From a virus, in the IMG/VR virus record IMGVR_UViG_3300046689_000570, positions 1 to 64,000 of that record: a stretch of DNA of 64,000 nt. One strand, 5' to 3'. Of this stretch, positions 15,301-49,933 are shown in pieces. Positions within the stretch are counted from its first letter, which is position 1. Each line of letters opens with the position of its first letter. The notes under the pieces are model-generated. The model worked only from the letters and a program-made list of their open reading frames with translations, had not been told where the DNA came from and ran no database searches. A program made the position numbers and the translations under genes.

Positions 15301-18300
15301 CCGCTCTCGAAGTGATCTGGGGGTCTGAGTCGTAGCGTCAGGACCATAGCCCAGATCCACCCCCGCCGCTCGTCCGGGGCCGGGCGGCTTTCCCGTGTTT
15401 ATCGCCTCGTCGAAGGGGATGCCGGAGTACGCCTTACGCTCACCACTGTAAAAGTCACCTTCAGGAGCAACTTTAGCCCGCTCCTCAGCGGCGCGGCGAC
15501 GGTAGCGGGCACGCGCATCCGCAGGAAAGGCGGGGTCGTTCGCCATCTGCTCGAACTGGCGAGCCCGTACGTCGGCGCCCACCGCACCGGGCTGGGCTTC
15601 GAGCGGCTTCGCTACGGGAGGTGGAGGAGGAGCCTGCTGCGCGGCACGTCGTCGAGCCGCCGCATCTTCGGCAGACTTCTGGATCGCGGCCTGCTGCTGC
15701 GCGTCTCGGGCAGCCCGGTCCTCGGGAGTCAACTCCGCCATGCGAGCCGCCTCTTCTGGAGTCGACGGTCCCAGCGCCTCAGGATTCTCGGGTACGGGGT
15801 TAGGGCCCTGTCGAGATGATTTGAATGGAGAGTCGACAGAGCTGGGGTTGTCGCCTAAGTATGAACTGGCTTGCTCCTGCGCCATCTTTCGCAGGTCTTC
15901 CACCGGGAGGGCGGGCTTCTTCGCGGCCTCTTCAGCCACCGGATCGTAGAACGACGCCTCGGCGTTACGCAGCTTGTCGCCGACCTGCCGTAGGGCAGTG
16001 ACCTGACTCTCCGCACGTGGTTCTCCACTAGAGGCCCACTTCGTAGTCCCGCGCTCGGGGTCGAGCCGGCGATCCTGGATCTCCCATAGGTTGGCCTGCT
16101 TGTTGCGCACTACGCGGTACTGCATGAAGGTGCCGTCGTCGACGGTGGTCATCGCGGCGATCTTCTCTGCCACACCCTCGCTCGGAGTCAGGTGACCGGG
16201 GAACGCAGGCTGCTCGACCGCAGGCTGGAGCTGCGCGTTCTCCCGTCGTGCCGCCTCAAACTGTGCCTGTAATTCAGGACTAGGAGCCGCTTCAGGAGCT
16301 GCTACGCTGGAAGGGGCGCTCGGCTCCAATGGCGTAGCCGGCGCCTCTACCGCACGCCCTGGCGCAGTCTCAGGCAAAGGATTGCGCCGCCACGACTCAC
16401 GCAGATCCATCGCGGCCTGACGCTGAGCCTCGACTGCGGCAGCGTCCTCCTTGGCCTTCTCTCCCGCTCGTTGAAGCGCAGCCTCGATCTTAGGAGCATC
16501 GGCTTGTTGACGTGCAACGGCTGTGGCCTTCGCCTCGGCATCTGTAGGGACGGACCCTTCCGGGATCTGCATCCCCATAGGTTCAGTAGGAGCTAGCGTC
16601 GGGACGTTCGCCTCGCCGCTCAGACGGGCGTTCTCGGCGCGCAGCTTCTCGATCTCCGCCATCATCTGATCTGCAATAGAGGTAGGCGCGGCCGGCGCCT
16701 CAGCCGGACGGCCCGACAGATCCTGTGCCCGCTGACGCGCGGCCTGCGCTCGACGCAGGAGACGGACCTCCATGTTCGAGTCGCCCATGTCGCGGGCCAG
16801 TTGGGCGTCCGTCTCCAGCTCCTGCGCTCGACGCTCTAGCGCGGTCAGGGTGTAGTTCCCCTCGGGGAGGGCGGGATAGGTCTGACGGCCTGGCTGCTCG
16901 TACAGGTCAGGCGCAGTCGTGCGGGGACCAGCCGTGATCGGCTCGTTCAGGTCTGCGGGGCGGGCAGCGGGCAGCGCGAGCTGCTCCTCAGGCGCCGCGA
17001 TCGCTCCCCGTGGAGGAGGCAGGTACTGCGGGGCCCCTTCGGGTAGTCCCGTCGGACGCTCCTCTGTGAAGTCAGGTCGATACGGTGGCGTCGTGAAGCC
17101 CGTCTCAGATGAGGTGGGCGTCTCGTTGACGCTGTACTCGGGCGAGACGCTGTTCAGTGGATTCGCCGCGCGGACCGACTGGTTGTACCTCTCCAGTTCC
17201 GCGGCGTAAGCCACCCTCGCCGCATCGTCGGCACGACGCTGCGCGGTCATGAAGTCCTCGGGGTTCAGACGAATGCTCTCTTCGTAGGCAGCCTGAGACG
17301 CGGCTCGCGCCCCTCTCCTGGCGGCATCGTCTGCCGCAATCCTCGCCGCATCCAGACCTGCGGGATTAGCGCGAGCTTCTCCCGCTCCGAGGTAGTTGAT
17401 GGGATTGACGGCCTGCTCCAGGATGTCAACGGGACCCGCATTCACTACGCCCTGGACTGCGCCCTTTACCCCGCTCAGGTCCAGCGGGCCTACTTGATCG
17501 GGGATGAGGTTCGCCTCGGCTCGCGCGAGTCCCACCACCGGGGCCACATAAGGGATCGCGTTCCTGCCCTGCTCGTTGATGTCCGTGATAGCAGGAAACT
17601 GCTGCTCCAGTGCCTGTCGTCCCGCACCAATAACGCCCGACACTGCGCCACCGATCGTATCAGGACCACCCATCACGCCCAACTCTGGCTGGCGGAACGT
17701 GTAAGCATCAGGAGGAGTGGGAGCGAAGGCGTTACCGACTGCACTCCCTACCGCACCCAGCACGTTACCCGCCCCCTGCGCAATGCGCTGCAACGGGTTC
17801 GGCTCTTGCACAGGGGTAAGCCCCACGCCACGATCCGCATCGCCGGTCGGCTGCATCTGGTTGCCCTGCATCGTAGAGAGTGGCTGGTCGTAGCTGGACT
17901 GGCCAAGGGTAGGATCGTTCTGCAAACCGTAGGCGGTCGCTCCAGTCGGAGGCATCTCCGGGGTAGGTGGCGTCTCGGGCACGACGACAGGAGCGGGCGG
18001 CGGCTTGGGCCGACCCAGGATGCCGTTGCCCGTCATCGGAACGTCGGGGCTCGGGGCGATCGTGGGGATAGGCGCCTCGCTCAGGCCCGCCGTGCTACTT
18101 ACGAAGGGGGTGTACTCCTGCGCACGAGGAAGCGACGTACCAGTCGCCGCTTCGAACTGTCCCACCACCGGCGCAGCCCGACGAAGGAAGTCCTGTTCAT
18201 AGGGAGACGGAGTGTAAGGTGCGGGAGTAGGGAGACTCTGCTGTGCTGGAGTGCTTGGGCTACTCGACGCTGACTGAAATCCCCCTCCAACTCGATTACC

Positions 18301-19680
18301 CGCAGGAGCTGCTCCGGGGGAAACACTGCCCACCTGTCGTGCGATGGAAAGAACTTGACTCGACCAGTTGGGATCGGTTGCATACCCTGCTGCGTGTACC
18401 GCACGAATGAACGCCTCCGGGTCGTTAGTCTGCTTAAGCGCCTCAGCGTAACGTGGGTTACTCTGCAAAAAAACCGCGAAGTCTCGGAAGCTCTGGGCAG
18501 GATCATCGTAAGCGCGGAAGTTGGCCGTAGTATTGACCCGCTGGCCATTCACCGACTCCCAGGTTGGACTGTTGAATGTCGCGCCCGTCTGAGGGTTGGC
18601 CCCCTTGATCCCGAAGAAGTTATTGCCCGGCGCGCTCTTCCCATAGCCCGTCTCGTTGGCCGCGATGCCCAGCATGATGTTGGCGGGGATGCCCGTCTCG
18701 GCTTGGACCTGTTGGGCGTAGGGCGCCGCACTGGCCAAGAACGCCTGCGGATTGGAGCGGTCGATCGGCCCGGGTTTCACCGTAGTGCCTTGTACTGCAG
18801 GACTAGGGTTCGGCGTACTAGGGTGATCCAAGTACAGCGTCGCCTGAGGCGGGCTGATTTTCATTACCTGCTCAGGGGTCATCCACTCCGAACCGCCCTG
18901 GCGACTCATGACCGAGCCTGACTTCTCGAAGTTGAACTTGCCGGAGACAGGGTCGTAGTCGGTCGCCACGAAGTAATGGGCGGGCGTACTAATCGTAACC
19001 GGGTTCCCGCTCTGCACATCCTGTTGGATCTTGGCCCAGTCCGCCCCCTGCTCCAGGCGAGCGGGTACGCCCATGGAGGTGAGGAGTTTGAGCTGGGAGC
19101 CGGGTCCGGCCATACCCGCGTCCGGGGTCCACCCGACCTGCTTGGCGAGATCCGTCGCTTCCCGCAAGGTAGGCTCGCGTCCGTAAGCACGGGCGAACGC
19201 GACGGCCGCGGCGGGACCACACGCGGCCTGGGCCTCTGCGTAGGAGAGCTGCGGGTCACCAAGCTGGTCGGGCACAAGGGGACCAGCCGGACGTCCCGAG
19301 GGAGCGGGAGCAACGCTCCCTTCGGGAGTTTGGGGTGCAGACGGCGTCTGCACGCCGCTGATCTGGAAAGGATTAGTCGCGGGCGTAGCCGGAGCAGGAG
19401 ATTCCTGTACCCCGGAGATTTGAAAAGGCGAGGATTGCACAGGGGGTGAGGAGGGTTCCTCGGACGCGGGCTCCTGCACGCCGCTGATCTGGAAGTTGGG
19501 AGCGGGCTGGCTCAGCTCCTGGTTGGTCGCCTCGTCGGCGTCTTTCCGGGCCTGCTCCTGGGCGGCCTGGACCGCCTCTTGCTGCTTACGGCGGTCCTCT
19601 TCTTCCTGGCGGCGCTGGGCTTCCTCGTCCTGATAGTCGTTGTACAGGTCCGTAGGAATCGGAGGAAGGCTCAGGGCCAC
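12385..19680 (-). CDS. Giant 2431-residue DNA-ejection protein with two wall-hydrolase domains
   Basis: GTG start. In order: a charged coil (15-55); three copies of FQISGVQ (63-69, 86-92, 105-111); a papain-like C39-type peptidase domain (about 140-290) with Cys154 in AACGPAA, His235 in TPAHYF and a following Asp in ATDYDP; a FlgJ/Acm2-like glucosaminidase (about 311-450) with Glu343 in ANETGYG and FFGIKG; then about 1300 residues of Pro/Ala/Glu/Gln-rich disorder and coiled coil. The C-terminal section (about 1600-2431) resembles LPD38-type ends of phage polyvalent proteins. It is probably a T7 gp16-like ejected protein that opens peptidoglycan and helps DNA cross the envelope. The hydrolase calls are from motifs; ejection is inference. 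Confidence 0.75.
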   Translation of the reverse strand: MALSLPPIPTDLYNDYQDEEAQRRQEEEDRRKQQEAVQAAQEQARKDADEATNQELSQPAPNFQISGVQEPASEEPSSPPVQSSPFQISGVQESPAPATPATNPFQISGVQTPSAPQTPEGSVAPAPSGRPAGPLVPDQLGDPQLSYAEAQAACGPAAAVAFARAYGREPTLREATDLAKQVGWTPDAGMAGPGSQLKLLTSMGVPARLEQGADWAKIQQDVQSGNPVTISTPAHYFVATDYDPVSGKFNFEKSGSVMSRQGGSEWMTPEQVMKISPPQATLYLDHPSTPNPSPAVQGTTVKPGPIDRSNPQAFLASAAPYAQQVQAETGIPANIMLGIAANETGYGKSAPGNNFFGIKGANPQTGATFNSPTWESVNGQRVNTTANFRAYDDPAQSFRDFAVFLQSNPRYAEALKQTNDPEAFIRAVHAAGYATDPNWSSQVLSIARQVGSVSPGAAPAGNRVGGGFQSASSSPSTPAQQSLPTPAPYTPSPYEQDFLRRAAPVVGQFEAATGTSLPRAQEYTPFVSSTAGLSEAPIPTIAPSPDVPMTGNGILGRPKPPPAPVVVPETPPTPEMPPTGATAYGLQNDPTLGQSSYDQPLSTMQGNQMQPTGDADRGVGLTPVQEPNPLQRIAQGAGNVLGAVGSAVGNAFAPTPPDAYTFRQPELGVMGGPDTIGGAVSGVIGAGRQALEQQFPAITDINEQGRNAIPYVAPVVGLARAEANLIPDQVGPLDLSGVKGAVQGVVNAGPVDILEQAVNPINYLGAGEARANPAGLDAARIAADDAARRGARAASQAAYEESIRLNPEDFMTAQRRADDAARVAYAAELERYNQSVRAANPLNSVSPEYSVNETPTSSETGFTTPPYRPDFTEERPTGLPEGAPQYLPPPRGAIAAPEEQLALPAARPADLNEPITAGPRTTAPDLYEQPGRQTYPALPEGNYTLTALERRAQELETDAQLARDMGDSNMEVRLLRRAQAARQRAQDLSGRPAEAPAAPTSIADQMMAEIEKLRAENARLSGEANVPTLAPTEPMGMQIPEGSVPTDAEAKATAVARQQADAPKIEAALQRAGEKAKEDAAAVEAQRQAAMDLRESWRRNPLPETAPGRAVEAPATPLEPSAPSSVAAPEAAPSPELQAQFEAARRENAQLQPAVEQPAFPGHLTPSEGVAEKIAAMTTVDDGTFMQYRVVRNKQANLWEIQDRRLDPERGTTKWASSGEPRAESQVTALRQVGDKLRNAEASFYDPVAEEAAKKPALPVEDLRKMAQEQASSYLGDNPSSVDSPFKSSRQGPNPVPENPEALGPSTPEEAARMAELTPEDRAARDAQQQAAIQKSAEDAAARRRAAQQAPPPPPVAKPLEAQPGAVGADVRARQFEQMANDPAFPADARARYRRRAAEERAKVAPEGDFYSGERKAYSGIPFDEAINTGKPPGPGRAAGVDLGYGPDATTQTPRSLRERARILNTAVQEALVNDQAPLEQIERRMEKLWADSHSGAKLPDGMRASLLNRMDSYYRGLDQIQNGLTDAYRHVGPDAVEDLKKYMTSLDNIDKAEAVGRDAYRAEYAREYKPPPGLWEDLKRAEASKAALNKVTPPASDVKAQAAHATRLADAEKRVNDLRKQYDTGATKFYDGQEARAKAAGEQARVERKFSGGHTADTSAQEIQRLQALYAKDPENWAKIEQAQRMIQDNVIAPLRDRMVQSGMISQDLADRLGSEFKNYIPIDILDYMKEPQHIPSNHRIGLNDIGLRKLTEEGTTRRREDPTSAVVRLVLDTERRASKNETANAVWKWRELDPSLASMMREVPSSYHATNNEKLVHLFVDGEKKTLAVDAALAPAFEFPTAANHIWHVGPLNFKNPIVSAANLTRATATTYNPAFALIRNPLLDAPAYWHDSWSRYGLRATPEIAAEGVKGFIDAFKGLRQNAFTGEHARELFRGGAGQFGYFGGTQKEVEQLRRAVEQGGGYVLQNKRDAANFLLHATPVLGERVEMAPRIAAMQLAKRHGLSELAQTTAGRDVTMDFSRGGQLTKAINTIVPFFNVNTQTLPWLARTLQRNPKGAAISLAALVGTPTLAAEIWNRSDPERAKAYDDIPPYIKQQGIVFMLDPNQGIDEQGRKKYNYVIAPMRNFGMLVNPIRNMAARAFAGISGQNYNAETWQELAAATLGSGSPVPIDSPSQSLSAFLPAITGTFVQLLANHDFFKNTTIATTSADEHSSALSKWFAKSTEDQLNWTPAQVEFAIRDASNSLGGQLLAASDIVAKVKENVATGQPMGANLAPLNPTWAEAGPLRKAITANLLQSRGGYQERKLSQLRDGLAQTWARDFRNDYHQGIGAAMGLPPDVRTTQDQKLADLAGELATVAVYGSGTDPRAEVARIQQQPGFVLLPPEKQADILAHIRQSYAQVGSINREDRMQRMEQAARSYETGFRGGR

Positions 19681-25445: not shown

Positions 25446-27782
25446 CTATCTCCTCCGTCGCGTGGGGCGCCGGCGGGCTTCCAGCTCTCGCTTGAACTGC
25501 GACATGCCGCCCGTTCCAATCGAAAGGGGATCGTTCCGCTTGGCGTACGCCCCCATTGTAAGGCTTTGGCCCTCCTCGCGGTGAGCAAGACCTTTCAGGA
25601 GCACCGCCAGGTGAGCGATTCCCGAGAGCGTGTCGACCCAGTCGTCATGGGCCCCTCGTGGAAATTCGAGTAGCTCGGCCAGAAACGCCGGCCACCAGGA
25701 CGCCTGGAGGTCCGCGTAGACTTCCCCGATCTCCGCCCGTCCGGCGGGGAGCTGCGCCCGGAGGGTCTTGTCGGTGACTTCGGGCACGGAGATGATCCGC
25801 ACGGTGAGCCCGCGGGCGTGGAGCATCTTCATGACCCGTGCGCACAGGGCCTGAGTGGCGAGCCGCTTCGCAAAGGCTCCCGACCAGATGCCTATGAGAG
25901 GAGGCGTCGGATCCAGCCGCTCGATGTAGTGGGCGAGGGCGCCGGCCAGCCCCCTCAGATCATCCTCCCGCCAGTCCTTGAGTTCTTCGACGCGCGTCCG
26001 CCAGGCGTGCAGCAGGTAAAGCTCTCCCTGCGGCCCCACCCCGGCCGTCAGGGCGGCCGTCCAGTCGGCACTCTCCTTAGAAGAATAGGCCAGGTCCCAC
26101 ATCTGGATGATCTGGAGGTCACCGGGATCGAGATTCACAGGGAGGGGCTGGAACCACTCGGACCGAAAGAGGGCCCCCTCACGCGGCACGGGCCGCTGCT
26201 GGAGCTGCCCCGCGATCGCGAAGCTAGTCGCCAGCGCCCGCTTGAGTTCCCGCAGCTCCCGTGGCCCGAAGCGTTCCGGGCACAGCAGCTCGCCCGGTTC
26301 TGAACGCGGGTCCGTGTAAATCTCACAGTCGTCGTGAGGCTCGGGCTCGGACGAGAACGCGGGCTGCACAGCTTGGTCGTCGGGGTGCTCGGACTCGTTG
26401 GACTCGTTTGGTGTAGTGGTGAAGAACTTCGAGATCCCCGGAATCTTGGGCAACAGCCCGATCCGCTCCGGGGCGTTAGGGGCGGGATTAGGATCCCGGC
26501 GCTTCGGCCCCTTACCCCCTGCCGGATTCGTTGGCCTTAAGATTAGGTTAGAGTTGTGCCTCGCGAAGAGGGCCCCCCGGAGCCGCTGCACGGCAAGACC
26601 CGCCCGTTCCTGAATCTCCCGGTCGGTAATCTCAGGACCCGCTTTTACCGGAGGCCCTGCGAGTCCCTTACCCCCCTCCTGGTCCGCTGAACTCTGGATT
26701 AGATCAGAGAGAGCGGTATCTAAGTCCAGGTCGAGGTCCCCCCAGTCATCAGGCGAGGGTCCGCTCAGGTCTTCTTCATGTTCGAGGGTCCAGAGAGGGT
26801 CATCTAACCTAATTGAAACATCAACTGATTCAGATTCGGGTAACTGAGTAGGAGAGGAGCTGAGTTGGGAAGAAGAAGTAGGATTAAGCAGATGTATGCG
26901 CGGTTCAAACTCCGCAGGCAAGCACAGGTGGTGATAGTCGCCGGTCTGAAGTAAATGGCCGGTGAGGTCTTCCGCGTGGACGCGCTGCATGATGATGACT
27001 TTGGCGACGGTCTTGGGGTCGTTACCTCTGGTGGACATGGTCTCGTCCCACCACGTAGTCACCGCTTCCCGCATGATGGGGGACTCCGCCTCACGAACTT
27101 TATGAGGGTCGTCGGCGACTAAGCGATCGCCACCTTCTCCCGTACCGAGACCACCTACGGAAGTCGCGATGCGATGACCGCCCTGATCGTTCTCGTAGCG
27201 GGTCTTCATGTTCTGGTCTGAAGTGAAGGACCACTGAGGGGAAAAGGCAGAGTCGTACCAGGGGTGGTTCATGAGGCGCCGGGAACGGACCGCGTCTCTA
27301 GTAGCCAGGGAGTCGGAGTAACTGGCGCACAGGTACTGGAGCTGCGGCTGAAAGGTCCACTCCCAGGTGGGCCAGAAGACGGAGACGAGAAAGCTCTTCA
27401 TGTGGCGGGGCGGCACGTTGATGATCAAGTTCCTGAGCTGCCCCATCGACACCGCCTCAAGATGCGCGCAGATGCAGTCGATATGCCAACTAGGAACAAA
27501 GTGCACACCAGGAGTCAACACCTGCCACGCTTGCTGTACATAGTCGCGTAGAGATAGCGGCGCCAGGTCTTGTAAAATTTTTTGGCGGTCACTATATGCA
27601 ATAGGGGTCCCATACGCGGGTATTTTATTGCTAAGACGTGAGGCAGATGATGATGTGACAGTAACGGGGGGCCCCAACCCCGCCCCGCTCCCGCCCCCTC
27701 CTGCGGGCTCATGCGCGGCTATCGTCCCGTCCCGCAAGTTCACCCGCACCGGGAGCGGGCTGTTCCCCGCTGCCTCCGCCAT
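25446..27782 (-). CDS. terL: Terminase large subunit with a long acidic insert
   Basis: ATPase: LRDYVQQAWQVL, SWHIDCICAHLEAV, Walker A-like PPRHMKS, then GGDRLVADDPHK as Walker B and VIIMQRVHAEDLTGHLL as coupling motif. Nuclease: DPRSEPGELLCPERF, IQMWDLAYSSKESADW, final HDDWVDTLSGIAHLA. About 190 residues (bases 26312-26885) of Ser/Asp/Glu/Pro-rich, low-complexity sequence separate the two halves; most terminases have only a short linker. The start is unclear: the frame is open to 27932. I use ATG 27782 (overlaps TerS by 74 bases); TTG 27677 is possible, and the ATGA-coupled ATG at 27712 is in another frame. Confidence 0.8.
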   Translation of the reverse strand: MAEAAGNSPLPVRVNLRDGTIAAHEPAGGGGSGAGLGPPVTVTSSSASRLSNKIPAYGTPIAYSDRQKILQDLAPLSLRDYVQQAWQVLTPGVHFVPSWHIDCICAHLEAVSMGQLRNLIINVPPRHMKSFLVSVFWPTWEWTFQPQLQYLCASYSDSLATRDAVRSRRLMNHPWYDSAFSPQWSFTSDQNMKTRYENDQGGHRIATSVGGLGTGEGGDRLVADDPHKVREAESPIMREAVTTWWDETMSTRGNDPKTVAKVIIMQRVHAEDLTGHLLQTGDYHHLCLPAEFEPRIHLLNPTSSSQLSSSPTQLPESESVDVSIRLDDPLWTLEHEEDLSGPSPDDWGDLDLDLDTALSDLIQSSADQEGGKGLAGPPVKAGPEITDREIQERAGLAVQRLRGALFARHNSNLILRPTNPAGGKGPKRRDPNPAPNAPERIGLLPKIPGISKFFTTTPNESNESEHPDDQAVQPAFSSEPEPHDDCEIYTDPRSEPGELLCPERFGPRELRELKRALATSFAIAGQLQQRPVPREGALFRSEWFQPLPVNLDPGDLQIIQMWDLAYSSKESADWTAALTAGVGPQGELYLLHAWRTRVEELKDWREDDLRGLAGALAHYIERLDPTPPLIGIWSGAFAKRLATQALCARVMKMLHARGLTVRIISVPEVTDKTLRAQLPAGRAEIGEVYADLQASWWPAFLAELLEFPRGAHDDWVDTLSGIAHLAVLLKGLAHREEGQSLTMGAYAKRNDPLSIGTGGMSQFKRELEARRRPTRRRR

Positions 27783-28155
27783 CCGTTGCGGGTTGAACAC
27801 TAGCGAGGATTTGGATGGTGCGGTCTCCAACCGCGTTGTAGACGGCAATGAGATCGGAAGCGGACTGACTGGCAACCCAGCGCGGGTCTGAGAACTGGCG
27901 GGCAAGGACGGTGACCGCTTCGATGTTGGCATTCAGCAACTCCGCTATTCGTTGTCCAAGATTCAGCTCTACCGCGTGCCTTGACGTAGCCACGACCGCG
28001 TTCCTGCCCTGCGGACTGGCTATCCATCGCCCGACTGTAGTCGCGGCTATTCCTGTTTCGCGCGAGATCGCGCCCAATGTTGCGCCCGCGGCGTACATGG
28101 CAATGGCTTGCGCGCGTTTCGCGTCGTCCACCCGCTTGAATGGCATACCCTGCAT
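27709..28155 (-). CDS. terS: Terminase small subunit
   Basis: 148 residues; ATG 28155 (or ATG 28146, MPFKRVDD). Residues 10-50 form a helix-turn-helix (KRAQAIAMYAAGATLGAISRETGIAATTVGRWI) that would bind the packaging site. Residues 60-125 are the helical oligomerisation part, and the tail is Gly/Pro/Ala-rich. The stop is at 27709-27711, directly upstream of the terminase ATPase. The 240 non-coding bases upstream hold repeated GTGCGCA words that could be its target. Confidence 0.75.
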   Translation of the reverse strand: MQGMPFKRVDDAKRAQAIAMYAAGATLGAISRETGIAATTVGRWIASPQGRNAVVATSRHAVELNLGQRIAELLNANIEAVTVLARQFSDPRWVASQSASDLIAVYNAVGDRTIQILASVQPATDGGGSGEQPAPGAGELAGRDDSRA

Positions 28156-36459: not shown

Positions 36460-36474
36460 CACGTAACCTCTACT

Positions 36475-36519
36475 CCCCTGTCAGGGCGGCATACCTACAG
36501 CGCACCGCCTTGACAGGGG
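36475..36519. terminator. Inverted repeat overlapping the 36.5 kb promoter
   Basis: 15-base arms CCCCTGTCAGGGCGG and its near complement (one mismatch), 15-base loop. It could end the upstream operon, and its right arm contains the -35 box of the next promoter, so it may also act as an operator. Confidence 0.6.
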
Positions 36520-36539
36520 AGCGCAATTTTTGCGACAAT
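36510..36539 (+). promoter_or_regulatory. Rightward phage promoter for the MoxR-VWA operon
   Basis: TTGACA, 18 bases, GACAAT with TGC directly before the -10; the spacer holds CGCAATTTTTGCG, an inverted repeat with arms CGCAA/TTGCG. This is the best consensus match in the window. Confidence 0.7.
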
Positions 36540-36590: not shown

Positions 36591-37637
36591 ATGACCGTAG
36601 TCCAGATCGAACGGGATCGCATTGTGGATTACATCCGAGACCACAATCGCGGATTGCAGGATCGGATGAACGTCATCACCTATGGCCCGCCCGGCACGGG
36701 CAAGACCACCCTGGCCTGGGCTTCCGCTCTGCCAGGGCAACCCATCTACGAGGTGACGTGCACCTCGGAGCAGAGCGCGGCCGTCTTGACGGGGTTCTTC
36801 GTCCCCAAGGGGGACAGGTTCGAGCACCTCGATGGCCCACTTACCCGCGCCTGGCTGGGTCAGCCCATCCGTATGGGAATCGAGGGCTTCGAGGAAGACG
36901 ACGAGCGCGGCGACGCCATCATTGGTGGCCTGTTGGTCATCAACGAGATCGACAAGGCGTCTCCTGATGTGGCCGACATCATTCATGTCGGCGCCGACGA
37001 CCAGCGGGTGGCCATCATGTACCTGCCCGACGGCAGGATCATCCGCCCCGCCAACGGGTTCTGGTGCTGGGCCACCATGAACGGCAACCTGGAAGACCTG
37101 AGCGACCCGGTGCTCGACCGCTTCCCTCTCCGCATCCCGGTGTGGGAACCCGGTCAGGGTCAGCTCGACCTCCTCTCCCCTGCTACCCAGCAAATCTGCC
37201 GAAACTTCTACACCTCAGTAGCGGGCACGGGCCGCTCACCGCAGTTCACCTACCGGGAGCTGCGAGCCTTCGATCGGCTGGTGCTGGCCGGCTCGCCCGC
37301 CAACCTGGCCGCGGCGTCCATTGGCCGCAACTCCGATGCGTCCGAGGCGCTGGCCAAGGACTACACCATCACCCAGGCCGCGCTGACTACCTTCCCGGTC
37401 ACCTCCAATGGGCACAGTGAGGTCGAAGCAGAAGAGGCTATGGAAGGTGCGCTCTTCAACACCCTCGATCCGACTGCCGAAGCGGCCGCTCAGCTCGCCT
37501 CTGAACTGGCCGTCACCTCCGAGATTCTCAGCCCCCTGTTCGGTGAGTCGGTGCCACTCACCATTCCCGTGAGCCCAGTCGCTACCGCGGCACCTCGCCG
37601 CACCCGTGCCCCACGCAGCACCCGGAGCGCCTTCTAA
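36591..37637 (+). CDS. MoxR/CobS-type AAA+ ATPase
   Basis: 348 residues from ATG 36591. Walker A GPPGTGKT at 32-39, a MoxR-like ETTCTSEQSAA segment after it, Walker B LLVINEIDKA near 116-125, sensor-1 WATMNGN near 160, and a DPVLDRFPLRIPV segment with the arginine finger. The C-terminal lid is helical and is followed by a disordered Thr/Pro/Arg-rich tail. MoxR-family ATPases work with VWA-domain partners to remodel proteins or insert metals. The next gene, coupled by TAATG, encodes such a partner. No cobaltochelatase large subunit is present. Confidence 0.85.
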   Translation: MTVVQIERDRIVDYIRDHNRGLQDRMNVITYGPPGTGKTTLAWASALPGQPIYEVTCTSEQSAAVLTGFFVPKGDRFEHLDGPLTRAWLGQPIRMGIEGFEEDDERGDAIIGGLLVINEIDKASPDVADIIHVGADDQRVAIMYLPDGRIIRPANGFWCWATMNGNLEDLSDPVLDRFPLRIPVWEPGQGQLDLLSPATQQICRNFYTSVAGTGRSPQFTYRELRAFDRLVLAGSPANLAAASIGRNSDASEALAKDYTITQAALTTFPVTSNGHSEVEAEEAMEGALFNTLDPTAEAAAQLASELAVTSEILSPLFGESVPLTIPVSPVATAAPRRTRAPRSTRSAF

Positions 37638-39715
37638 TGGGCAACAGCATTCTCCCTCAGGGACTGGACGGGAAGGACTGGCAGATCCTCCAGTCCGCTA
37701 ACCAGGAAGTCAGCGTCAACCTGCGGCAGCACATCGCCACTGCCGTACCCGCAGTGACGCAGGGCCTGGAGCAGGCTCACTACCACGAGCTGGCGAGGAT
37801 CATGTTCAGCGCCGGCCACGAGCCAGACATCACGACTCACGCGGGAATCCTGGCGGAGGCTATCGAAGAGCTGCGGCTGGACCTGCTGCTCGAAGAGCGC
37901 GGCATTCCACAGGACAAGCGGCTAGAGGATCACGACTGGGCTCAGGCGCCCCGCTTCGACGCGTCAACCGCCGCCCGCGACCGTCTCCGCTTCTTACTGG
38001 AGACGGTGTGGCAGGCTCAGGAAGAGGGACCACTCACTCAGCACTGGCTGAACACCTTCAACGAGCTGCAGCGGGACAAGCCCTCGCTGATCGACGCACT
38101 CAAGGGTACCCTGCCGCAGCTCCAGCAAGCGGTCAAGCAGGGGGGCGACGGACTGGCGGAGCGTGACGAGCTGGCTCGCCAACTGTGGAAGCTGCTCGAC
38201 CCGCCACCACCACCGCCCAAGCCGGTCACTCCGCAGCAGCTCTCGCACGAGACGCAGCAGAAGATCCAGGAGGCGGCGAAGCCCAAGCCGGAGCCCGCCG
38301 AGGCACCCAAGAAGAAGCAGACCCGCCTGCGCAAGATCGAGAAGCCGAAGCCCGAGCCCCAAGAAGAGGATGAAGAGGCGGCGACGTCGGAGTCAACCGA
38401 CGAGGAGTCCGCGAACAACGATAGCTCAACCGCGTCCTCGAAGAACGAGGAGCGTGATACGCAGGAGGAGGGAGAAGATGGGAATGGGGATGCTGACCAG
38501 TCGGAGAAGGACTCTGGAGCACGAGACGATGCTGAAGAAGAAGACGGAGCGGAGGAGAAGGAGGAATCAGGCGGCAAGTCGGATGCGGGTGAAGACCCGG
38601 AAGCGGATGAAGAAGAGCTAGATGGCGAGGATGACGGGGACGGGGAAAGCGGCGCTGAGGCCAGCGAAGAGGAACTCGAAGACGACGGGGACCGCGAAGA
38701 CGAGGAGGGCGGCGAAGAAGAGAAGGACTACGCCGCAGAGTACGAAGAGGTAGAGGAGACCGACGAGGAGCGGCGCGAGCGGGAAGAGCAAGAAGCAGAG
38801 GACCGCGCAATCGCCGACGCACTCAACCAGGGCGGCGAGTCGGTGCTTCAGGTCTACGATCCGAAGAAGCCGCACGGGGTAGGTGGCGACGCCAAGGTCG
38901 GGCACATGCTGATCCACGATCATGTGAAGACCTCGAAGAGGACGCACATGGTCCGCAAGACGGCCGGTGCCCGCGACCGAGGGGTCATCCCCACCCAGTT
39001 CCATCGGTACGCCATGGACAAGGCGGTCTTCTCCGCTAAGCGGCCCGGCGGTACCATCCTGATCGACGGCTCCGGCTCTATGAACTGGGACCCCGACAAG
39101 CTGGAAGTCCTGATCTCGCAGCTTCCCACCGCCACGATCGCGATCTATCACGGCTCCGAGGTGGACTGGGAAGTAACTACCGGACTGGGCGCCACGCTTC
39201 AAGCGGCGGCCAAGCAGCAGCAGGATGCGTGGACTGCCTGGCGAGAGTATCAAAACGATCAAAACGACTACGACTACGATAAAGAGCGGCAGCTCGGACG
39301 AGAGCGGCAAGCCGCGTTCGAGAGCTGGAAGCGGGTAGCTACTGCCGCAGGCTACCAGCCCGTCGACTCTCCCTGGGTAGCCGGCATTCAGCGAGCCGGT
39401 GCAGCGGTCAATGGCACCCTGTGCATCCTGGGCAAGCAAGGCCGCTGGGGTCCCCTCGCTCACGGTCTCGGTGGCGGCAACAACGTCGACGTCGAGGCGT
39501 TGCAGTGGCTGGCCGCCCAGCCGGGGCCCCGTGTCTGGATCTCCGATGGCCGCGTGACCGGCGGCTTCTACTACGGGATGCTGGGTAGTCAGGGACTGGA
39601 ACACCTGTGCGAAGAGCTGTGCCGTCGGCACCGCATCACCCGCACCCCTACGGTGCAGGCTGCGCTCAAGCAGCTCCGCGTGACTATCCCCAGTCTCGCC
39701 AAGCTGGGCATCTGA
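37637..39715 (+). CDS. CobT-like VWA protein with a long acidic region
   Basis: 692 residues. Residues 1-190 helical; 190-240 Pro/Lys linker; 240-400 almost entirely Glu/Asp (with Ser/Lys), as in CobT of aerobic cobaltochelatase. A C-terminal VWA domain starts near 470: MIDAS motif DGSGSM, then after a charged helical insert (about 525-580, WREYQNDQNDYDYDKERQLG) GGGNNVDVEALQWL and a WISDGRVTG third motif. Divalent metal binding is therefore likely intact. It would be the substrate-recognition partner of the preceding ATPase. The substrate is unknown; chelatase activity is unlikely without CobN. Confidence 0.8.
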   Translation: MGNSILPQGLDGKDWQILQSANQEVSVNLRQHIATAVPAVTQGLEQAHYHELARIMFSAGHEPDITTHAGILAEAIEELRLDLLLEERGIPQDKRLEDHDWAQAPRFDASTAARDRLRFLLETVWQAQEEGPLTQHWLNTFNELQRDKPSLIDALKGTLPQLQQAVKQGGDGLAERDELARQLWKLLDPPPPPPKPVTPQQLSHETQQKIQEAAKPKPEPAEAPKKKQTRLRKIEKPKPEPQEEDEEAATSESTDEESANNDSSTASSKNEERDTQEEGEDGNGDADQSEKDSGARDDAEEEDGAEEKEESGGKSDAGEDPEADEEELDGEDDGDGESGAEASEEELEDDGDREDEEGGEEEKDYAAEYEEVEETDEERREREEQEAEDRAIADALNQGGESVLQVYDPKKPHGVGGDAKVGHMLIHDHVKTSKRTHMVRKTAGARDRGVIPTQFHRYAMDKAVFSAKRPGGTILIDGSGSMNWDPDKLEVLISQLPTATIAIYHGSEVDWEVTTGLGATLQAAAKQQQDAWTAWREYQNDQNDYDYDKERQLGRERQAAFESWKRVATAAGYQPVDSPWVAGIQRAGAAVNGTLCILGKQGRWGPLAHGLGGGNNVDVEALQWLAAQPGPRVWISDGRVTGGFYYGMLGSQGLEHLCEELCRRHRITRTPTVQAALKQLRVTIPSLAKLGI

Positions 39716-39721
39716 TCTCAC

Positions 39722-39744
39722 GGGGGGCCGCAGTGCGGCCCCCC
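39722..39744 (+). terminator. GC hairpin after the VWA gene
   Basis: Perfect stem GGGGGGCCGC/GCGGCCCCCC with a three-base loop, seven bases after the stop. No strong T-run; likely a partial terminator. Confidence 0.65.
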
Positions 39745-39770
39745 TCTCTACTCCAGAAAGGACCAGGATA

Positions 39771-40124
39771 ATGAGTCTCTATCTCGACGAGTTCAGGAGC
39801 GTCCGCATGAAGTGCGACGGCTGCGGCCTGGACGACTGGGTGCGCAGCGGCATCGTCTCTGCTTACTGGCACATCGAGGATGACACTCACCAGTATTGCG
39901 GTGAATGCTGGGATCGGATCAAGCAGGACGCGAAAGTCTTCGGCGACCAGTGCAGCTTCCCGCTCTTCGAGCCCGCGATTCGAGAGCGCCTCTTCTTCCG
40001 CTGCGTGGAGGCAAACAACCTCAGCGTTCAGTGCTCACCCCCCGCATGGGGATATGGGGCACCGCGTGCTAGTGTCTACGTCGTCAACCTCGATAACCGC
40101 ATCGAGTTGAGAGGGCCACGATGA
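39771..40124 (+). CDS. Zinc-finger protein
   Basis: 117 residues, ATG start after AGGA. Two Cys pairs, CDGCG (residues 15-19) and CGECW (about 43-47), probably form one zinc site. A late CVEANN and CSPPAWGYG follow. Its stop overlaps the helicase ATG as ATGA. Possibly a DNA-binding accessory to the helicase or the VWA protein. Confidence 0.6.
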   Translation: MSLYLDEFRSVRMKCDGCGLDDWVRSGIVSAYWHIEDDTHQYCGECWDRIKQDAKVFGDQCSFPLFEPAIRERLFFRCVEANNLSVQCSPPAWGYGAPRASVYVVNLDNRIELRGPR

Positions 40125-42243: not shown

Positions 42244-42265
42244 CTCAATCAGGCGGTAACCAAAA

Positions 42266-42305
42266 AGCCCCGGCCTCTGTGACTGCACCACAGGACCGGG
42301 GCTTT
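42266..42305. terminator. Bidirectional terminator between convergent genes
   Basis: AAAAAGCCCCGG ... CCGGGGCTTT stem with an inner CTGTG/CACAG extension; A-run on one side and T-run on the other. It lies between the XRE gene (plus) and Prim-Pol gene (minus). Confidence 0.85.
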
Positions 42306-42367
42306 CTGTTTGCCAGGAGACTACCGGGTGGACGAGACCTACGACGAGTACGCGAATCCCCGCCGTA

Positions 42368-43885
42368 TTATAGCAGGATGTCGAAGGGGAGATACCACAG
42401 GTCCCAGTACGAACCGTCGGGGAACTGGTAGAGCACGTTGCCGCCGCCCATGGAGCGCAGCGTCTGCCAAATCTGGTGCGCCGCGGGAGCGGGTCGGAGC
42501 TTGGTCCCGATGTTGTTGACCAGCAGGTCGCCGTTGACGATCAGCAGGTTTCTCGCGTCATCGTACCAGGAGGTGGGCGCCTTGGCGGGGGACTCAGGGA
42601 TCTCGTGGAGGGGATTGCCGCGCAGGACCTTGAGGATCCCGAACTTGATAACGCCCGTCTGCGTGGCGCTCTCGGGTACCTCCTCTTTCTCGGCCAGGTT
42701 GAAGATGGCTTCCGCGAAGAACTTGCCGCCACCCTTCTCCATGAAGACGTCCCCGAACTGTGGCACGAAGTTCAACTGCACGCCCATGCGGCGGGTGACG
42801 ATGTTCATCTCGAACAGGTCGTCGCCGTTCAGGGTAACCGTGCGCTCCTCGCCGCGCACCTCCAGGTCCAGCTCATACTGTGGGTCGTCCATCTCGATGC
42901 GGCGTACACGGAGTAGCTTGAAGTTGCGCCCCACTTCCTGGTGCTTGGCATCCTCTTTGGCCGCCACTCGCTCGTGCACATTGTGGATGGTGCGGAGCAC
43001 GTAGCCTCGTCCGTGGTTGGGACGGCCGCGCTCCTGGTAGGTATGGCTGCCAATCGGAAACGTGGCGAACACGACCTCGATCTGCTCTGCGGTGAGCCCG
43101 GCCCCGTCCAACTGTGCACATACCGCGAAGTCGATCTCAGAGTTGGACTTGGTGCGGGCCCACTCACCCACCCCAGCCTCAACCAGGGGATCGAAGATGG
43201 CCCGCTTCACACGGGAGGTGAGGGCGAGGTGCTCCAACAGAAAGACGGCCTTCTCGTAGTCGGCACCCACCAGGGGAGGGATGATCGTGCGGTCGGAGAA
43301 GTCTTCGGCAGGAGGGGCGACGGCAGGAACCGCAGTGGGCACGGTCCCCGAGTAGGCAGCATAGAGGCGGTCGTAAACCTGACGGGCATTGGCACAGCTA
43401 CGGATGTGCTCGAAGTCTCCCATCAGCACGCGGTAGGAGCCGCCACTCGGGTGCGTGGACGGAGGCACCACCACGTAGGAGCCCTCGCCTTTGATGTCCG
43501 CTACCCGCATCCCGGCGCGATCGTTGTAGGCGGTGGTGCTCGGATGGTCGGTCGAGAAGAGGAAGACGTGCAGCTTATCACTACCCGTCTCGATGACGAG
43601 GGTGTTCAGTGAGGGAAGGTGGGGGCGGATCCAGGTGCAGAAGGGGATCGAGTCGATGTCGCAAACGTGTAAGCCATGGCTGACTTTACCGCAGATGATG
43701 GCGAGGTTCGCGTCGGGGTACTTGACGGCCCACTCGGCTAGCTCATCTTCGGTGGGGATGCGGGTCTGGTATTCCTTCCACTTGAATCCGGTGATGGGTT
43801 GCTTATCGTGAGGCGTTACGGGGATTACCGAGAGTCCGAGGCTCCGATAGTAGCGGGCGTCGTCGACCCAGGTACGTATAGCCAC
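42368..43885 (-). CDS. Bifunctional primase/polymerase (Prim-Pol) protein
   Basis: 505 residues, GTG start with GGAG at good spacing. The N-terminal Prim-Pol domain shows ARYYRSLGLSVIPVTPHDKQP, LAIICG, the metal motif CDIDS (Asp76, Asp78), His106 in KLHVFLF, and VADIKGEGSYVVVPPSTHPSGGSY. Residues 200-300 are helical and about 310-505 are of unknown fold. It would make primers for phage replication. It is the only minus-strand gene in the 30.7-56.8 kb block and is insulated by a terminator and a divergent promoter region, so it has its own expression control. Confidence 0.8.
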   Translation of the reverse strand: MAIRTWVDDARYYRSLGLSVIPVTPHDKQPITGFKWKEYQTRIPTEDELAEWAVKYPDANLAIICGKVSHGLHVCDIDSIPFCTWIRPHLPSLNTLVIETGSDKLHVFLFSTDHPSTTAYNDRAGMRVADIKGEGSYVVVPPSTHPSGGSYRVLMGDFEHIRSCANARQVYDRLYAAYSGTVPTAVPAVAPPAEDFSDRTIIPPLVGADYEKAVFLLEHLALTSRVKRAIFDPLVEAGVGEWARTKSNSEIDFAVCAQLDGAGLTAEQIEVVFATFPIGSHTYQERGRPNHGRGYVLRTIHNVHERVAAKEDAKHQEVGRNFKLLRVRRIEMDDPQYELDLEVRGEERTVTLNGDDLFEMNIVTRRMGVQLNFVPQFGDVFMEKGGGKFFAEAIFNLAEKEEVPESATQTGVIKFGILKVLRGNPLHEIPESPAKAPTSWYDDARNLLIVNGDLLVNNIGTKLRPAPAAHQIWQTLRSMGGGNVLYQFPDGSYWDLWYLPFDILL

Positions 43886-46087: not shown

Positions 46088-47496
46088 ACAGCCCCCTGAT
46101 GCCGCACCAGCTCGAAGCCGCGTGGCGTGCGTATCACCGCCTGACGCGCGGCGAGGGCAAGCGCGGTTACTACTGGGCCCACGCACCTGGAGTGGGGAAG
46201 ACGCTCAGCGCCATCACGCTGATCCGCCTCCTCCAACCTGTGCGGACCCTGGTCGTGACCAACGCACCTGGCTGGGGCGTGTGGCAGCGGGAGCTAGATC
46301 ACTGGTGGGAGCCAGGCAAGTGGCAGGCGCCGCCAACGTACCGCCACCTAGACCCTGACATCCCGATCGCGATCTACACCTATGACCAGTTCAAGGGGCC
46401 CTACGGAGTAGAGCGGCAGACCATCGTGAAGAACTGGAAGCCGGGTCTCGTGGTGCTCGACGAGTCGCACAAGATCAAAGGTGCGGGCTCGGTCCGCAGC
46501 AAGACGCTGGCCAAGATCATCGAGCGGATCGAGTTGCGGCTCCTCATGAGCGGTACCCCGGCGCACAGCCCGTTGGACTGGTGGGCCCAGTATCGCTACG
46601 TCGACCCCGAGAACCCGCGCTGGAAGCAGCGGTTCACCCAGTACAAGAAAGAGATCGCGGTCTTTGGAGGGCCGGAGGGGGTATGGATCGAAGGCTTTCG
46701 TGCGGACGTCTGTGCTCAGGTGAGCGAGGAGATGGCGCCACTTACCCACGTCGCCACTGAAGAAGTTCTGGATCTGGAAGAGCCGCTAGAGACCGTCATC
46801 CCCGTCACCCTGAACACGAAAGAGCAGAAGGCGTACAAAGACCTGGCCAAAGAGATGCTCTACGCCAGCGAGTATGGCGTGACCTCAGTCGCCAATCCTA
46901 TGCTCAAGCCCATGCGGCTACATCAGGTGACCAGCGGTTGGTTGATGACGGATCCCGAAGAGGATGAGGTGGGCGCCCGCCATCTGGTGGAGCTGGGAGA
47001 CTCGAAGCTCCAGGTGTTGCGAGAGGTGCTGGATGAACGGGCTCAAGAGAAAGTCGTGATCTCGGCCTACTTCCTGAATGACCTTCAGCGCATCGCAGGG
47101 CTCTGTGCCAGGCTCAAGCGGCCACTACGGGTAATCGACGGCAGCACGTCCAAGACGGCCCGCACAGGGGCAGAGGATTGGTTTCAGGGCACCGACGAGC
47201 AGAACGCGGTGATCGTGCTTCAGCAGCAGGCGGGGGGCGAGGCCATCACCCTGACCGCCTCACGTTTCCTGGTGCTGTTCTCGCTGGCGCCCAGCGTGAT
47301 CGCGTTCCGCCAGGTCCTCGGGCGCATCTTCCGCAAGGGACAGACGAGGCGAGCACAGGTGTTGTATCTTTCGGGTTCCAAGAACGACGAGGCGATCTTC
47401 AAGGGCTTGAAGCAGGGGCTCGACGAGGCGGGACTCCAGCGGATGCTACTTGAACAGCTCAGGCAGGAGGCGCTCTCTCATGCCACGCAACCCTGA
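46084..47496 (+). CDS. SNF2/superfamily 2 helicase
   Basis: 470 residues, GTG start overlapping the exonuclease stop (ATG 46099 is the alternative). Motif Q/I: PHQLEAAWRAY, then APGVGKTLSAI; motif Ia VVTNAPGWGVWQREL; II LVVLDESHKIK; III LLMSGTPAHSPLDWW; IV-VI KVVISAYFLNDLQRI, VIVLQQQAGGEAITLTAS, then FRQVLGRIFRKGQTRRAQV with the SNF2-type 'R-xGQ' arginine finger. A translocase for replication or recombination. Overlaps the polymerase gene by 17 bases. Confidence 0.85.
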   Translation: MNSPLMPHQLEAAWRAYHRLTRGEGKRGYYWAHAPGVGKTLSAITLIRLLQPVRTLVVTNAPGWGVWQRELDHWWEPGKWQAPPTYRHLDPDIPIAIYTYDQFKGPYGVERQTIVKNWKPGLVVLDESHKIKGAGSVRSKTLAKIIERIELRLLMSGTPAHSPLDWWAQYRYVDPENPRWKQRFTQYKKEIAVFGGPEGVWIEGFRADVCAQVSEEMAPLTHVATEEVLDLEEPLETVIPVTLNTKEQKAYKDLAKEMLYASEYGVTSVANPMLKPMRLHQVTSGWLMTDPEEDEVGARHLVELGDSKLQVLREVLDERAQEKVVISAYFLNDLQRIAGLCARLKRPLRVIDGSTSKTARTGAEDWFQGTDEQNAVIVLQQQAGGEAITLTASRFLVLFSLAPSVIAFRQVLGRIFRKGQTRRAQVLYLSGSKNDEAIFKGLKQGLDEAGLQRMLLEQLRQEALSHATQP

Positions 47497-49933
47497 GTGT
47501 GCGAACTGTTCCCTCGGAGAAGTCTCCGTCTACACCCGCTGCCTGTGGGGAGACTTCCGCCAGTTCGACGTGGCGGATCCTGAGATCCTCATCCTCGGTG
47601 AGGCGCCTGGCTACAACGAGGACCTGAATGGCCGCGTCTTCATCGGCGCATCGGGAGAGCTGCTCACGCAGGGACTTGCACAGGTGGGACTCGACGATCC
47701 CTACTACATCACCAACGTAGCGAAGTGCGCGCCGCCCGGCAACAAGCTCCCCCGCGATGCGGTCAAAGGCTGCGCGGACTATCTCGAAGAAGAGATCGCG
47801 CAGGTCAAGCCCCAGTTCATCCTGGCGCTGGGCAACACCGCGATTCAGCGGCTCACTGGCAAGGGGAAGATCACCGAGCTGGCGGGCAAAGAGATATGGT
47901 CCGAGCGGTACAACTGCTGGATCGTCCCTGCGCTACACCCCGCTGCCATCCTGCGCAACATGGGTAAGCACGCGGGGTGGATCGCCGATCTCCAGCACTT
48001 CGCTGACCTCGTGCACGGCACGCTGCCGCAACACGTCCCGGTGCAGGCGGTGGAGATCGACACCCCGGAGAAGCTAGAGAAGCTCGCCGACCTCCTCCAA
48101 CGAGCGGGCAAGTTCTCGTTTGACTTCGAGGCTACACCCATCGAGTGGTGGGACAAGGATTGGAAGCCCTACTGCGTGAGCTTCTCCGTTGACGGTGGGC
48201 ACAGCTTTGTAATCCCGCTTGAACATCCACTGTGGCAAAACGAACACGGCGGCGCTCTCGTTCATCTCGCGAACGTGTACGCCTGGGCGCAGAAGCATCG
48301 TGACTTCTTCCAGGATCCGCAAGTTCTCAAGGTGGCGCACCAGCGGCTCTACGACACGCTCGCTTGGTGGCGGACGTTCCGCTATCAGATCGCGACGACG
48401 AACTGCTCAATGATCGCCTGTCATCTACTCGACGAGAACGAGCCGAAGAGTCTCAAGTGGCAAGGCCGCACCAAGCTGGGCTGGCCGGACTGGGACATCG
48501 ACGCGAAGAAGCTGCACCCCTGGCCTGACACGGTGCAGTACAACGGCACAGACTCCGCGGCTACGTTCAAGCTGATGTGGGAAGTCTACGAGCCGCTCTT
48601 GAGGCAGCGCGAACAGTGGGACTACTACACCCACCTGTGCATGCAGAACGCGGCCTGGATCGAGCGCATGATGTGGCGCGGCATGCCGATCGACGAGAAC
48701 GTCCGCCTCGACCGGCTGGCCACCGCAGTGCAGAGCAGCCAGGAGGCGCGGGAGGTGATCCCGGTAGCGAACCCCGGCTCGACCAAGCAGGTAGCGGCCT
48801 GGCTCTACGACGAGTTGCAGCTTCCCATCCTCAAGCTCACTCCAGCGGGTAAGCCCAGTACGGACGAGGATACGATCAATCGCCTCGCGCTCCTGGGCCA
48901 CGAGGCACCCAAGCAGGTGCTCACCTATCGAGGACACGAGAAGAACCGCACAACCTACATCGAGCCGATGGGGGACATGACGGCCCGCTCGTTCGACGGA
49001 CGGCTGCACCCCGACATCCGCATGGCAGTGGTGGAGACGGGGCGGCACAGCAGCTTCATGCACACCGTGCCCCGCGACAGCCTGATCCGTAGCATCCTAC
49101 GTTCCACGGATCCCAACTGGGAGCTGGTCGAGGTAGACCAGGCGCAGCTTGAGGCACGGCTGGCCGCGTGGGCGGCGGCCGGACGACCGCGCAGTTTCGA
49201 GAACGTCGACTGGTCGAAGGCGCGGATGCTGCACGCCTTCCTCGAAGGGCGGGATCTTTACCGTGAGATGGCGGGCGCAGGGCTGGGAAAGGACTGGCGA
49301 GATGTCACGACCAAAGAGCGGCAGGATATGGGCAAGGTCCCCGTCCTGGCGATGCTCTACAAGATTTCCTGGCGCGGTCTCCGCGAATATGCCTGGCGGT
49401 CGAATCAACTGGACTGGAGCGAAGCCTTTGCCAAGCACCTCTGGAGCACGTTCAATAATCTCTTCCCTGAGTTCCGCAAGTGGCACCAGTCTGAGTCCGA
49501 GAAGATCCTGGCGCGGGGCTGGGCCCGCACGGAACTCGGCCGTATTCGACATCTCCCAGATGCCTTCAGTCCCATCGAGCAGGTTCGCGAAGCTGCGGTT
49601 CGTAGTGGCATCAATATGCCGATCCAGGGCCTGGGCTCAGATATTACTCAGGCCGCAGGAATTCTGCTCGATCTTCGCCTGGATCCTGAGGAAGCCTTCA
49701 TCATCCACGAGATTCATGATGCCCTTCTACTGGCCGTCCGCAAGGATCAAGTAGCCAGCCTCACTCCGATACTCAAGCACTACATGGAGAAAGCTCACCT
49801 CTCCCTACGTCCACTGGGACTACACCTCCCCGATGGACTCCTGATCGCCGAAGAGAAGATCGGACCATGGGGTATGGGTGTGAGCCTGGAGAAGTATCAG
49901 ACCAGCGGAGCGGCAGTCCTGGGCCTTGTTTAG
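47480..49933 (+). CDS. Uracil-DNA glycosylase (family 4) fused to DNA polymerase I
   Basis: 817 residues from ATG 47480, with GGCAGGAGG upstream. Residues 1-180: UDG family 4 with iron-sulphur Cys 7, 10, 83, 98, LGEAPGYNED, GRVFIGASGELL, KCAPPGNKLPRDAVKGC and ALHPA (His153). Residues about 205-400: 3'-5' exonuclease with DFEA, VAHQRLYDTLAWW and YNGTD. Residues 400-817: A-family polymerase with motif A LVEVDQAQLEARLAAWAA, motif B lysine in GKVPVLAMLYKISWRG (the usual NFG/YG is changed), and motif C IHEIHDALLLAV (catalytic Asp kept, usual Glu is Ala). The fusion resembles the SPO1 polymerase. The main replicase of this phage. Confidence 0.9.
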   Translation: MPRNPECANCSLGEVSVYTRCLWGDFRQFDVADPEILILGEAPGYNEDLNGRVFIGASGELLTQGLAQVGLDDPYYITNVAKCAPPGNKLPRDAVKGCADYLEEEIAQVKPQFILALGNTAIQRLTGKGKITELAGKEIWSERYNCWIVPALHPAAILRNMGKHAGWIADLQHFADLVHGTLPQHVPVQAVEIDTPEKLEKLADLLQRAGKFSFDFEATPIEWWDKDWKPYCVSFSVDGGHSFVIPLEHPLWQNEHGGALVHLANVYAWAQKHRDFFQDPQVLKVAHQRLYDTLAWWRTFRYQIATTNCSMIACHLLDENEPKSLKWQGRTKLGWPDWDIDAKKLHPWPDTVQYNGTDSAATFKLMWEVYEPLLRQREQWDYYTHLCMQNAAWIERMMWRGMPIDENVRLDRLATAVQSSQEAREVIPVANPGSTKQVAAWLYDELQLPILKLTPAGKPSTDEDTINRLALLGHEAPKQVLTYRGHEKNRTTYIEPMGDMTARSFDGRLHPDIRMAVVETGRHSSFMHTVPRDSLIRSILRSTDPNWELVEVDQAQLEARLAAWAAAGRPRSFENVDWSKARMLHAFLEGRDLYREMAGAGLGKDWRDVTTKERQDMGKVPVLAMLYKISWRGLREYAWRSNQLDWSEAFAKHLWSTFNNLFPEFRKWHQSESEKILARGWARTELGRIRHLPDAFSPIEQVREAAVRSGINMPIQGLGSDITQAAGILLDLRLDPEEAFIIHEIHDALLLAVRKDQVASLTPILKHYMEKAHLSLRPLGLHLPDGLLIAEEKIGPWGMGVSLEKYQTSGAAVLGLV

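Follow-up and report, generated by a model that had tools for sequence, protein, structure and literature searches.

In group 2.2 jumbo phages, a MoxR ATPase is accompanied by a von Willebrand factor A (VWA) protein fused to an N-terminal metallopeptidase, for which a role in virion assembly has been proposed, and a MoxR-vWA system of the Acidianus two-tailed virus (ATV) has been tied to tail assembly (PMC7824862). In many tailed viruses such pairs are named 'cobST', with the proposal that they hijack the CobN of the host, and the 'peptidase' annotation of the cyanophage CobT has been called mistaken (PMC8651126). A related arrangement is found in NorQ-NorD, which inserts iron into nitric oxide reductase (NOR), and in which the VWA domain extends a finger into the pore of the ATPase (PMC13036017). 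Here we analyse a pair of this kind at positions 36591-39715 of IMG/VR record IMGVR_UViG_3300046689_000570, of which positions 1-64000 (out of 64,851 bp) form the stretch studied, hereafter the window; its source is a tailed phage. A first, sequence-only reading took the pair for the best candidate for an undescribed system, yet it belongs to a type already present in both viral descriptions (PMC7824862, PMC8651126): the pair is a known type of viral machine, here in a new variant form.

It is very likely that the machine is a MoxR AAA+/VWA remodelling machine, and the pair is real and probably functional. The fuller reading, which we favour by a modest degree, is that it belongs to a family composed of a MoxR ATPase and a protein with a zincin-like domain, a linker and a VWA domain, that its zinc motif has decayed, and that its target is a replication or recombination protein. 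The features that bear on this reading are as follows.

36591..37637 (+): gene for a MoxR-type AAA+ ATPase (CobS/NorQ/CbbQ-like), 348 aa, from Pfam AAA_5, a NorQ PDB match and phrog_249
36684..36707 (+): Walker A motif GPPGTGKT, from motif alignment
37637..39715 (+): gene for the VWA co-chaperone, 692 aa, its start codon overlapping the AAA stop by 1 nt (TAATG)
37637..38245 (+): predicted N-terminal zincin-like domain, residues 1-203, from alignment and AlphaFold model
37784..37798 (+): HELAR, residues 50-54, an HExxH motif with the second His replaced by Arg
38345..38851 (+): acidic linker, residues 237-405, with 78 of 169 residues Asp or Glu (46%), low-confidence in the model
39029..39703 (+): C-terminal VWA domain, residues 465-689, from a fold match to the NorD VWA domain
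39065..39082 (+): metal-ion-dependent adhesion site (MIDAS) motif DGSGSM, residues 477-482, invariant in 59/59
39152..39406 (+): window-specific insertion in the VWA domain, residues ~506-590, from a spacing count and AlphaFold model
39479..39490 (+): N615xxD618, the second metal-site loop of the family, invariant in 59/59

How does this locus compare with the described systems? Like the jumbo-phage pair (ASV44729/ASV44728, a likeness drawn from its published description), it consists of two adjacent genes, one for a MoxR ATPase and one for a VWA protein with an N-terminal peptidase-like domain. It differs in its HELAR, in an acidic linker of far greater length, in the helical hairpin that interrupts its VWA domain, and in its place in the replication region of a 65-kb contig. 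With 'viral CobST', the cyanophage cobS and 'peptidase', and the CobT/CobS of phage-plasmids it shares the gene pair and the domain order of the VWA protein, and the N-terminal domains can be connected stepwise via profile comparison; unlike that group, the window has no Pfam CobT match, and its order of AAA then VWA is reversed in the phage-plasmids. Among PDB sequences, that of NorQ matches the ATPase best, and the best fold match is the NorD VWA domain, but no NOR genes, norCB-like genes included, were seen among the 20 window open reading frames (ORFs) scanned. Finally, CobS-CobT also combines an AAA protein with a VWA protein carrying an acidic linker, the NxxD loop of the window resembles the NIDGEA of CobT, and the N-terminus of CobT is likewise without HExxH; what sets the window apart is that it has neither CobN nor a CobT family match.

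The ATPase matches Pfam AAA_5 (2.3e-11), phrog_249 (2.5e-10) and, in the PDB, NorQ (6e-9), and it has the sensor N164 and the Arg finger R177. Its gene stands directly beside the VWA gene on one strand, just as the sequence-only reading had it. At 36942-36944 (residue 118) the Walker B Asp is replaced by Asn (NEID) with the Glu kept, as in 52/58 aligned viral ATPases including that of the window, which is unusual for AAA+ proteins.

Relatives became visible through alignments: neither window protein, used as a single query against IMG/VR, gave any, and a tblastn search of the phage collection with the VWA protein, whole or as the domain, was equally empty. The seed was a set of weak tblastn matches to Gordonia and Microbacterium phage ATPases, and the resulting alignment fetched 16 viral loci, whose VWA proteins led to the best 80 of 310 IMG/VR relatives; motif counts refer to 59 non-redundant proteins. 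Against these 310, only 8 relatives were found in 84,980 prokaryote genomes, all 8 on contigs of metagenome-assembled genomes (MAGs), and we therefore regard the family, from sequence comparison, as virus-borne, large and found in tailed viruses. In nearly all relatives the VWA gene comes next after a homologous AAA gene, usually overlapping it or nearly so.

The most informative part of the VWA protein is its N-terminus, which had been passed over as a 'helical start', and which aligns with an HExxH-bearing, zincin-like domain of the relatives. AlphaFold predicts strands, a helix with the HE pair (45-58) and a following helix with the Glu (68-87), and the HELAR of the window aligns without gaps to the HELAH of three relatives (L017, L109, L115). 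Across the family, HExxH is present in 46/59 proteins (HELGHAK, HELMHAR, HELAHAK), most of them with the Glu in the next helix. The motif was likewise seen in Gordonia phages Mareelih, Phendrix and GMA2 and in the 'peptidase' of cyanophage P-SSM2, as well as in Gordonia phage Woes, Vibrio phage ICP2, Rhizobium RHEph10, Roseobacter CRP-810, Ochrobactrum OC and an E. coli phage-plasmid. It is lost in L020, L021, L048 (LQLGH, with Glu to Ser), L055, L072 (KQLGY) and L025, and a further group (L028-L030, L036, L089, L104) has an N-terminus without a convincing alignment. On the VWA-domain tree the presence of HExxH needs ~6 changes, at least 3 of them forced by well-supported branches, and loss is often accompanied by that of the downstream Glu. 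Such repeated loss indicates that the pair can persist without the motif. Since the window has HELAR instead of an intact HExxH, we file it as a variant whose peptidase domain has probably decayed, and not as an active peptidase. Could it nonetheless cleave, with R54 tolerated or another ligand in place of the second His? H50, E51 and E77 are kept, unlike in relatives that miss several ligands; however, the change of the second His to Arg falls within an otherwise well-aligned motif and the sequence offers no alternative His one turn away, and we consider an active metallopeptidase-chaperone improbable.

At the other end of the protein conservation is complete. The MIDAS residues D477, S479, S481 and D637 are present in the window and invariant in all 59 aligned family members, confirming the intact VWA metal site already noted from the letters, and the canonical MIDAS Thr position is occupied by the family's own N615..D618. 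With the VWA metal residues in 59/59 and HExxH in 46/59, the VWA/AAA core is, on this alignment, the conserved part of the family and the zinc motif dispensable. Between the two ends lies the acidic linker, which is probably disordered, as judged from the model. The ~160 acidic residues first reported turn out to be a linker of ~169 residues with 78 Asp/Glu, and it is the most extreme in the family, its best 40-residue stretch having a D/E fraction of 0.62 vs at most 0.47 in any relative. Equally particular to the window is the insertion in the VWA domain: the spacing from SGSM to NxxD is 132, vs 26-64 in 58 relatives, and the ~80 additional residues, absent from those 58, are modelled by AlphaFold as a helical hairpin (helices 519-540 and 547-570). 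By analogy with the NorQD finger (PMC13036017), our guess is that this hairpin may enter the ATPase pore. Among database matches of the VWA protein, that to phrog_33218 is real. Those to acidic proteins in PHROG_1576, NCBIfam and the PDB are compositional, as is a blastn match to an Erwinia phage, which falls in the acidic linker, and a Pfam Bac_thur_toxin match (E 0.3) is due to chance.

The models of the window protein (predicted local distance difference test, pLDDT, 65) and of the relative L017 (73) both consist of strands, the HE helix, the Glu helix and more helices, then a linker modelled with low confidence and the VWA domain. For both, the best fold match is the VWA domain of NorD in the NorQ-NorD complex (L017: Z 10.0, root-mean-square deviation (rmsd) 3.5, 146 aligned; window: Z 9.2, rmsd 4.0, 152 aligned), while Foldseek gave no PDB match at E<=0.001. 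If the pair works as NorQD does (PMC13036017), the ATPase would form a hexamer, the VWA domain would dock into its pore, and the MIDAS metal would grip an acidic residue of the target; ATP hydrolysis would then twist and stretch the linker, and the N-terminal domain would serve as the second grip and pull the target open. In most relatives this domain could also cleave the target, whereas in the window, with HExxH changed to HExxR, it would most likely only bind.

Is the pair, then, an auxiliary set of cobaltochelatase subunits that borrows the CobN of the host and raises cobalamin supply, as proposed for 'viral CobST' (PMC8651126)? In plan the pair is like CobS/CobT, and hhalign matches the VWA profile to CobT (E 2.5e-7 global; 87.6%, E 3.5e-6). 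The protein has the acidic linker and the VWA domain of the CobT plan first ascribed to it. The Pfam CobT models PF06213 and PF11775 have no match in it, whilst the positive controls match. As the sequence-only reading had found for the window, CobN (PF02514) was not found anywhere in the 64,851-bp record; nor was it found in 14 records that carry the pair, 4 complete phage genomes and 2 plasmids among them, or in 8 MAGs with a relative in the bin. Escherichia phage PhiR41_1, whose host is E. coli K-12, carries the CobT-like gene of the pair, 98% identical to one with intact HEVAH, and an E. coli control genome had no CobN match. A cobaltochelatase role is unlikely because of the missing CobN in the 14 records and of this E. 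coli phage gene beside a CobN-less E. coli control. Co-occurrence with ribonucleotide reductase, as a sign of B12 demand, is mixed (4/14 pair records, with class I and II pooled), and the enzyme was not found in the window record. On balance, we regard the borrowing of host CobN as very improbable.

The N-terminal domains offer another perspective on CobT. The 'CobT' of the E. coli phage-plasmid (L107) matches PF06213 (3e-27) and PF11775 (6e-83) and has HEVAH inside its PF06213 part, and HExxH is absent from the bona fide CobT of Methylobacterium and four other bacteria (L106, L124-L127); a class-wide PF06213 search had no match in 91 genomes, probably of the wrong class. Profile comparisons form a chain, from the window family to the P-SSM2/OC peptidases (93.8%, E 2.8e-8), from these to the phage-plasmid and phage CobT (96.6%, E 5.7e-10), and from the latter to bona fide CobT (97.3%, E 5.9e-11), with negative controls near 0%. 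With the HExxH columns removed, the second and third links stay at E 3e-7 and E 2e-9, and the first drops to E 1e-3 to 3e-3, so that the link of the window family to P-SSM2/OC depends partly on the motif; the direct comparison of the window family with bona fide CobT was not significant. Since these profiles make the N-terminus of bona fide CobT a homologue of the HExxH domain in the phage-plasmid protein, it looks like a zinc-less relative of zincins. By the same sequence evidence, the HExxH domain in the phage proteins argues against the claim (PMC8651126) that the cyanophage 'peptidase' label is a mistake.

The setting of the pair bears on when it acts, and the following features flank it or frame it.

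36473..36521 (strand not assigned): 17-bp inverted repeat (94%) with a 15-nt loop, from a repeat search, overlapping the -35 box
36510..36539 (+): sigma70-like promoter TTGACA-N18-GACAAT, 10/12, 51 nt before the AAA start codon
39722..39744 (+): 11-bp perfect GC hairpin downstream of the VWA gene, strong and resembling a terminator, but with no clean T run
39771..40124 (+): CxxC/CxxC zinc-ribbon-like ORF, 117 aa, from sequence, adjoining the pair
25446-27932 (-): terminase

The promoter claimed from the letters is indeed there, its pattern having 1 match in the window vs 0.02 expected by chance. The inverted repeat (RNA fold -39.9 kcal/mol, z -7.0) is a candidate operator and/or terminator of the upstream gene, and the stretch 39712-39765 with the GC hairpin folds at -26.7 kcal/mol. 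With promoter, repeat and 3' hairpin in place, the pair has the look of a separate transcription unit. A zinc-finger gene had been noted behind it; the CxxC/CxxC ORF does lie there (Pfam and PHROG gave no family for it at E <= 0.01), but the hairpin stands between it and the pair, and it may belong to a different transcript. What of the possibility that the pair is a non-functional remnant of a captured operon? In its favour, the window protein sits on a long branch of the tree (3.62). The ORFs are, however, full-length and overlapping, the AAA and MIDAS motifs intact, promoter and hairpin their own, and the family virus-borne, and we give this view hardly any credence. A captured, unexpressed cobaltochelatase operon is disfavoured likewise by the 310 viral relatives vs 8 in prokaryote genomes, and by the promoter and hairpin.

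The plus strand of the window encodes helicases, a family A DNA polymerase (PolA), a PD-(D/E)XK exonuclease and a Sak4-like annealing protein (Pfam/PHROG scans), and the pair sits within this replication region, on the same strand; terminase and a tail protein are on the minus strand. The neighbourhood of the pair was also searched in other phages. In a large clade, a PD-(D/E)XK exonuclease and an annealing protein stand beside or after the pair, and terminase is on the strand opposite the pair in 29/29 loci; in other phages, dnaE, primase, clamp and clamp loader, ligase or recombinase genes are near it. It had been suggested that the pair serves a target other than cobalt insertion: cobalt insertion is probably not its task, and the replication link fits the gene order in many lineages. 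As a unit of its own in an early/replication region, the pair would have a replication or recombination protein as its likeliest target, of phage or host and early in infection; we hold this tentatively, at a little short of even chances, and it is the least certain part of our explanation, inferred from gene order only. The alternative, a chaperone of virion assembly that might or might not also process structural proteins by proteolysis, draws on the same gene architecture in group 2.2 jumbo phages, where assembly was proposed, and on the tail assembly link in ATV (PMC7824862). Against it, the terminase and tail genes of the window lie on the other strand from the pair, terminase does so in 29/29 loci of the large clade, where exonuclease and annealing genes follow the pair, and the zinc motif of the window is broken; we judge this alternative unlikely.

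Several further observations concern these regions. In 42 loci of the large clade (L011-L105), the VWA gene and the exonuclease are separated by a conserved protein of ~81 aa. In the window, the family A DNA polymerase (47450-49933) has an N-terminal domain of the uracil-DNA-glycosylase superfamily (Pfam UDG 2.6e-28) and matches a 3'-5' exonuclease weakly; a Prim-Pol-type primase gene (42368-43885) is on the minus strand inside the plus-strand replication region, and between it and a converging helix-turn-helix gene lies a 19-bp inverted repeat (84%, 42255-42314), perhaps a two-way terminator. At 12385-19680 (-), a 2,431-aa protein has an endolysin-type domain at residues 309-468, and is perhaps a tail protein with a lysin domain.

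Certain points weigh against the remodelling machine with a decayed zinc motif and a replication target. The window protein has no close relative in the collections searched (best identity ~26% overall), and H54R thus rests on a single metagenome sequence. In the fold searches the VWA domain filled the lists, with no rows for the zincin-like N-terminal domain. Other VWA domains follow closely behind NorD (Z 7-8.7; 8-8.7 in the search with the window protein), so the match supports a VWA fold, and with it an AAA-VWA mode of action, more than kinship with or descent from NorD, as far as the models go. Finally, gene order gives early or replication timing, and not a physical partner.

To conclude, our results tie two published descriptions, viral CobST and the jumbo-phage MoxR-peptidase-vWA system, to one family. 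Perhaps, and we offer this as a conjecture that is somewhat more doubtful than even, phage 'cobST' are not B12 genes but a replication-phase zincin-VWA-MoxR remodelling machine, whose zinc site was repeatedly discarded whilst the VWA/AAA core was kept; CobT would then be its zinc-less descendant, or share a common ancestor with it, and the phage/plasmid machine and the B12 enzyme would be branches of one family. Many phage genes are labelled cobalamin auxiliary metabolic genes from their similarity to CobS/CobT. The HExxH domain, the missing CobN, the occurrence in E. coli phages and the replication gene order argue against that label, and the question can be tested in laboratory phages.

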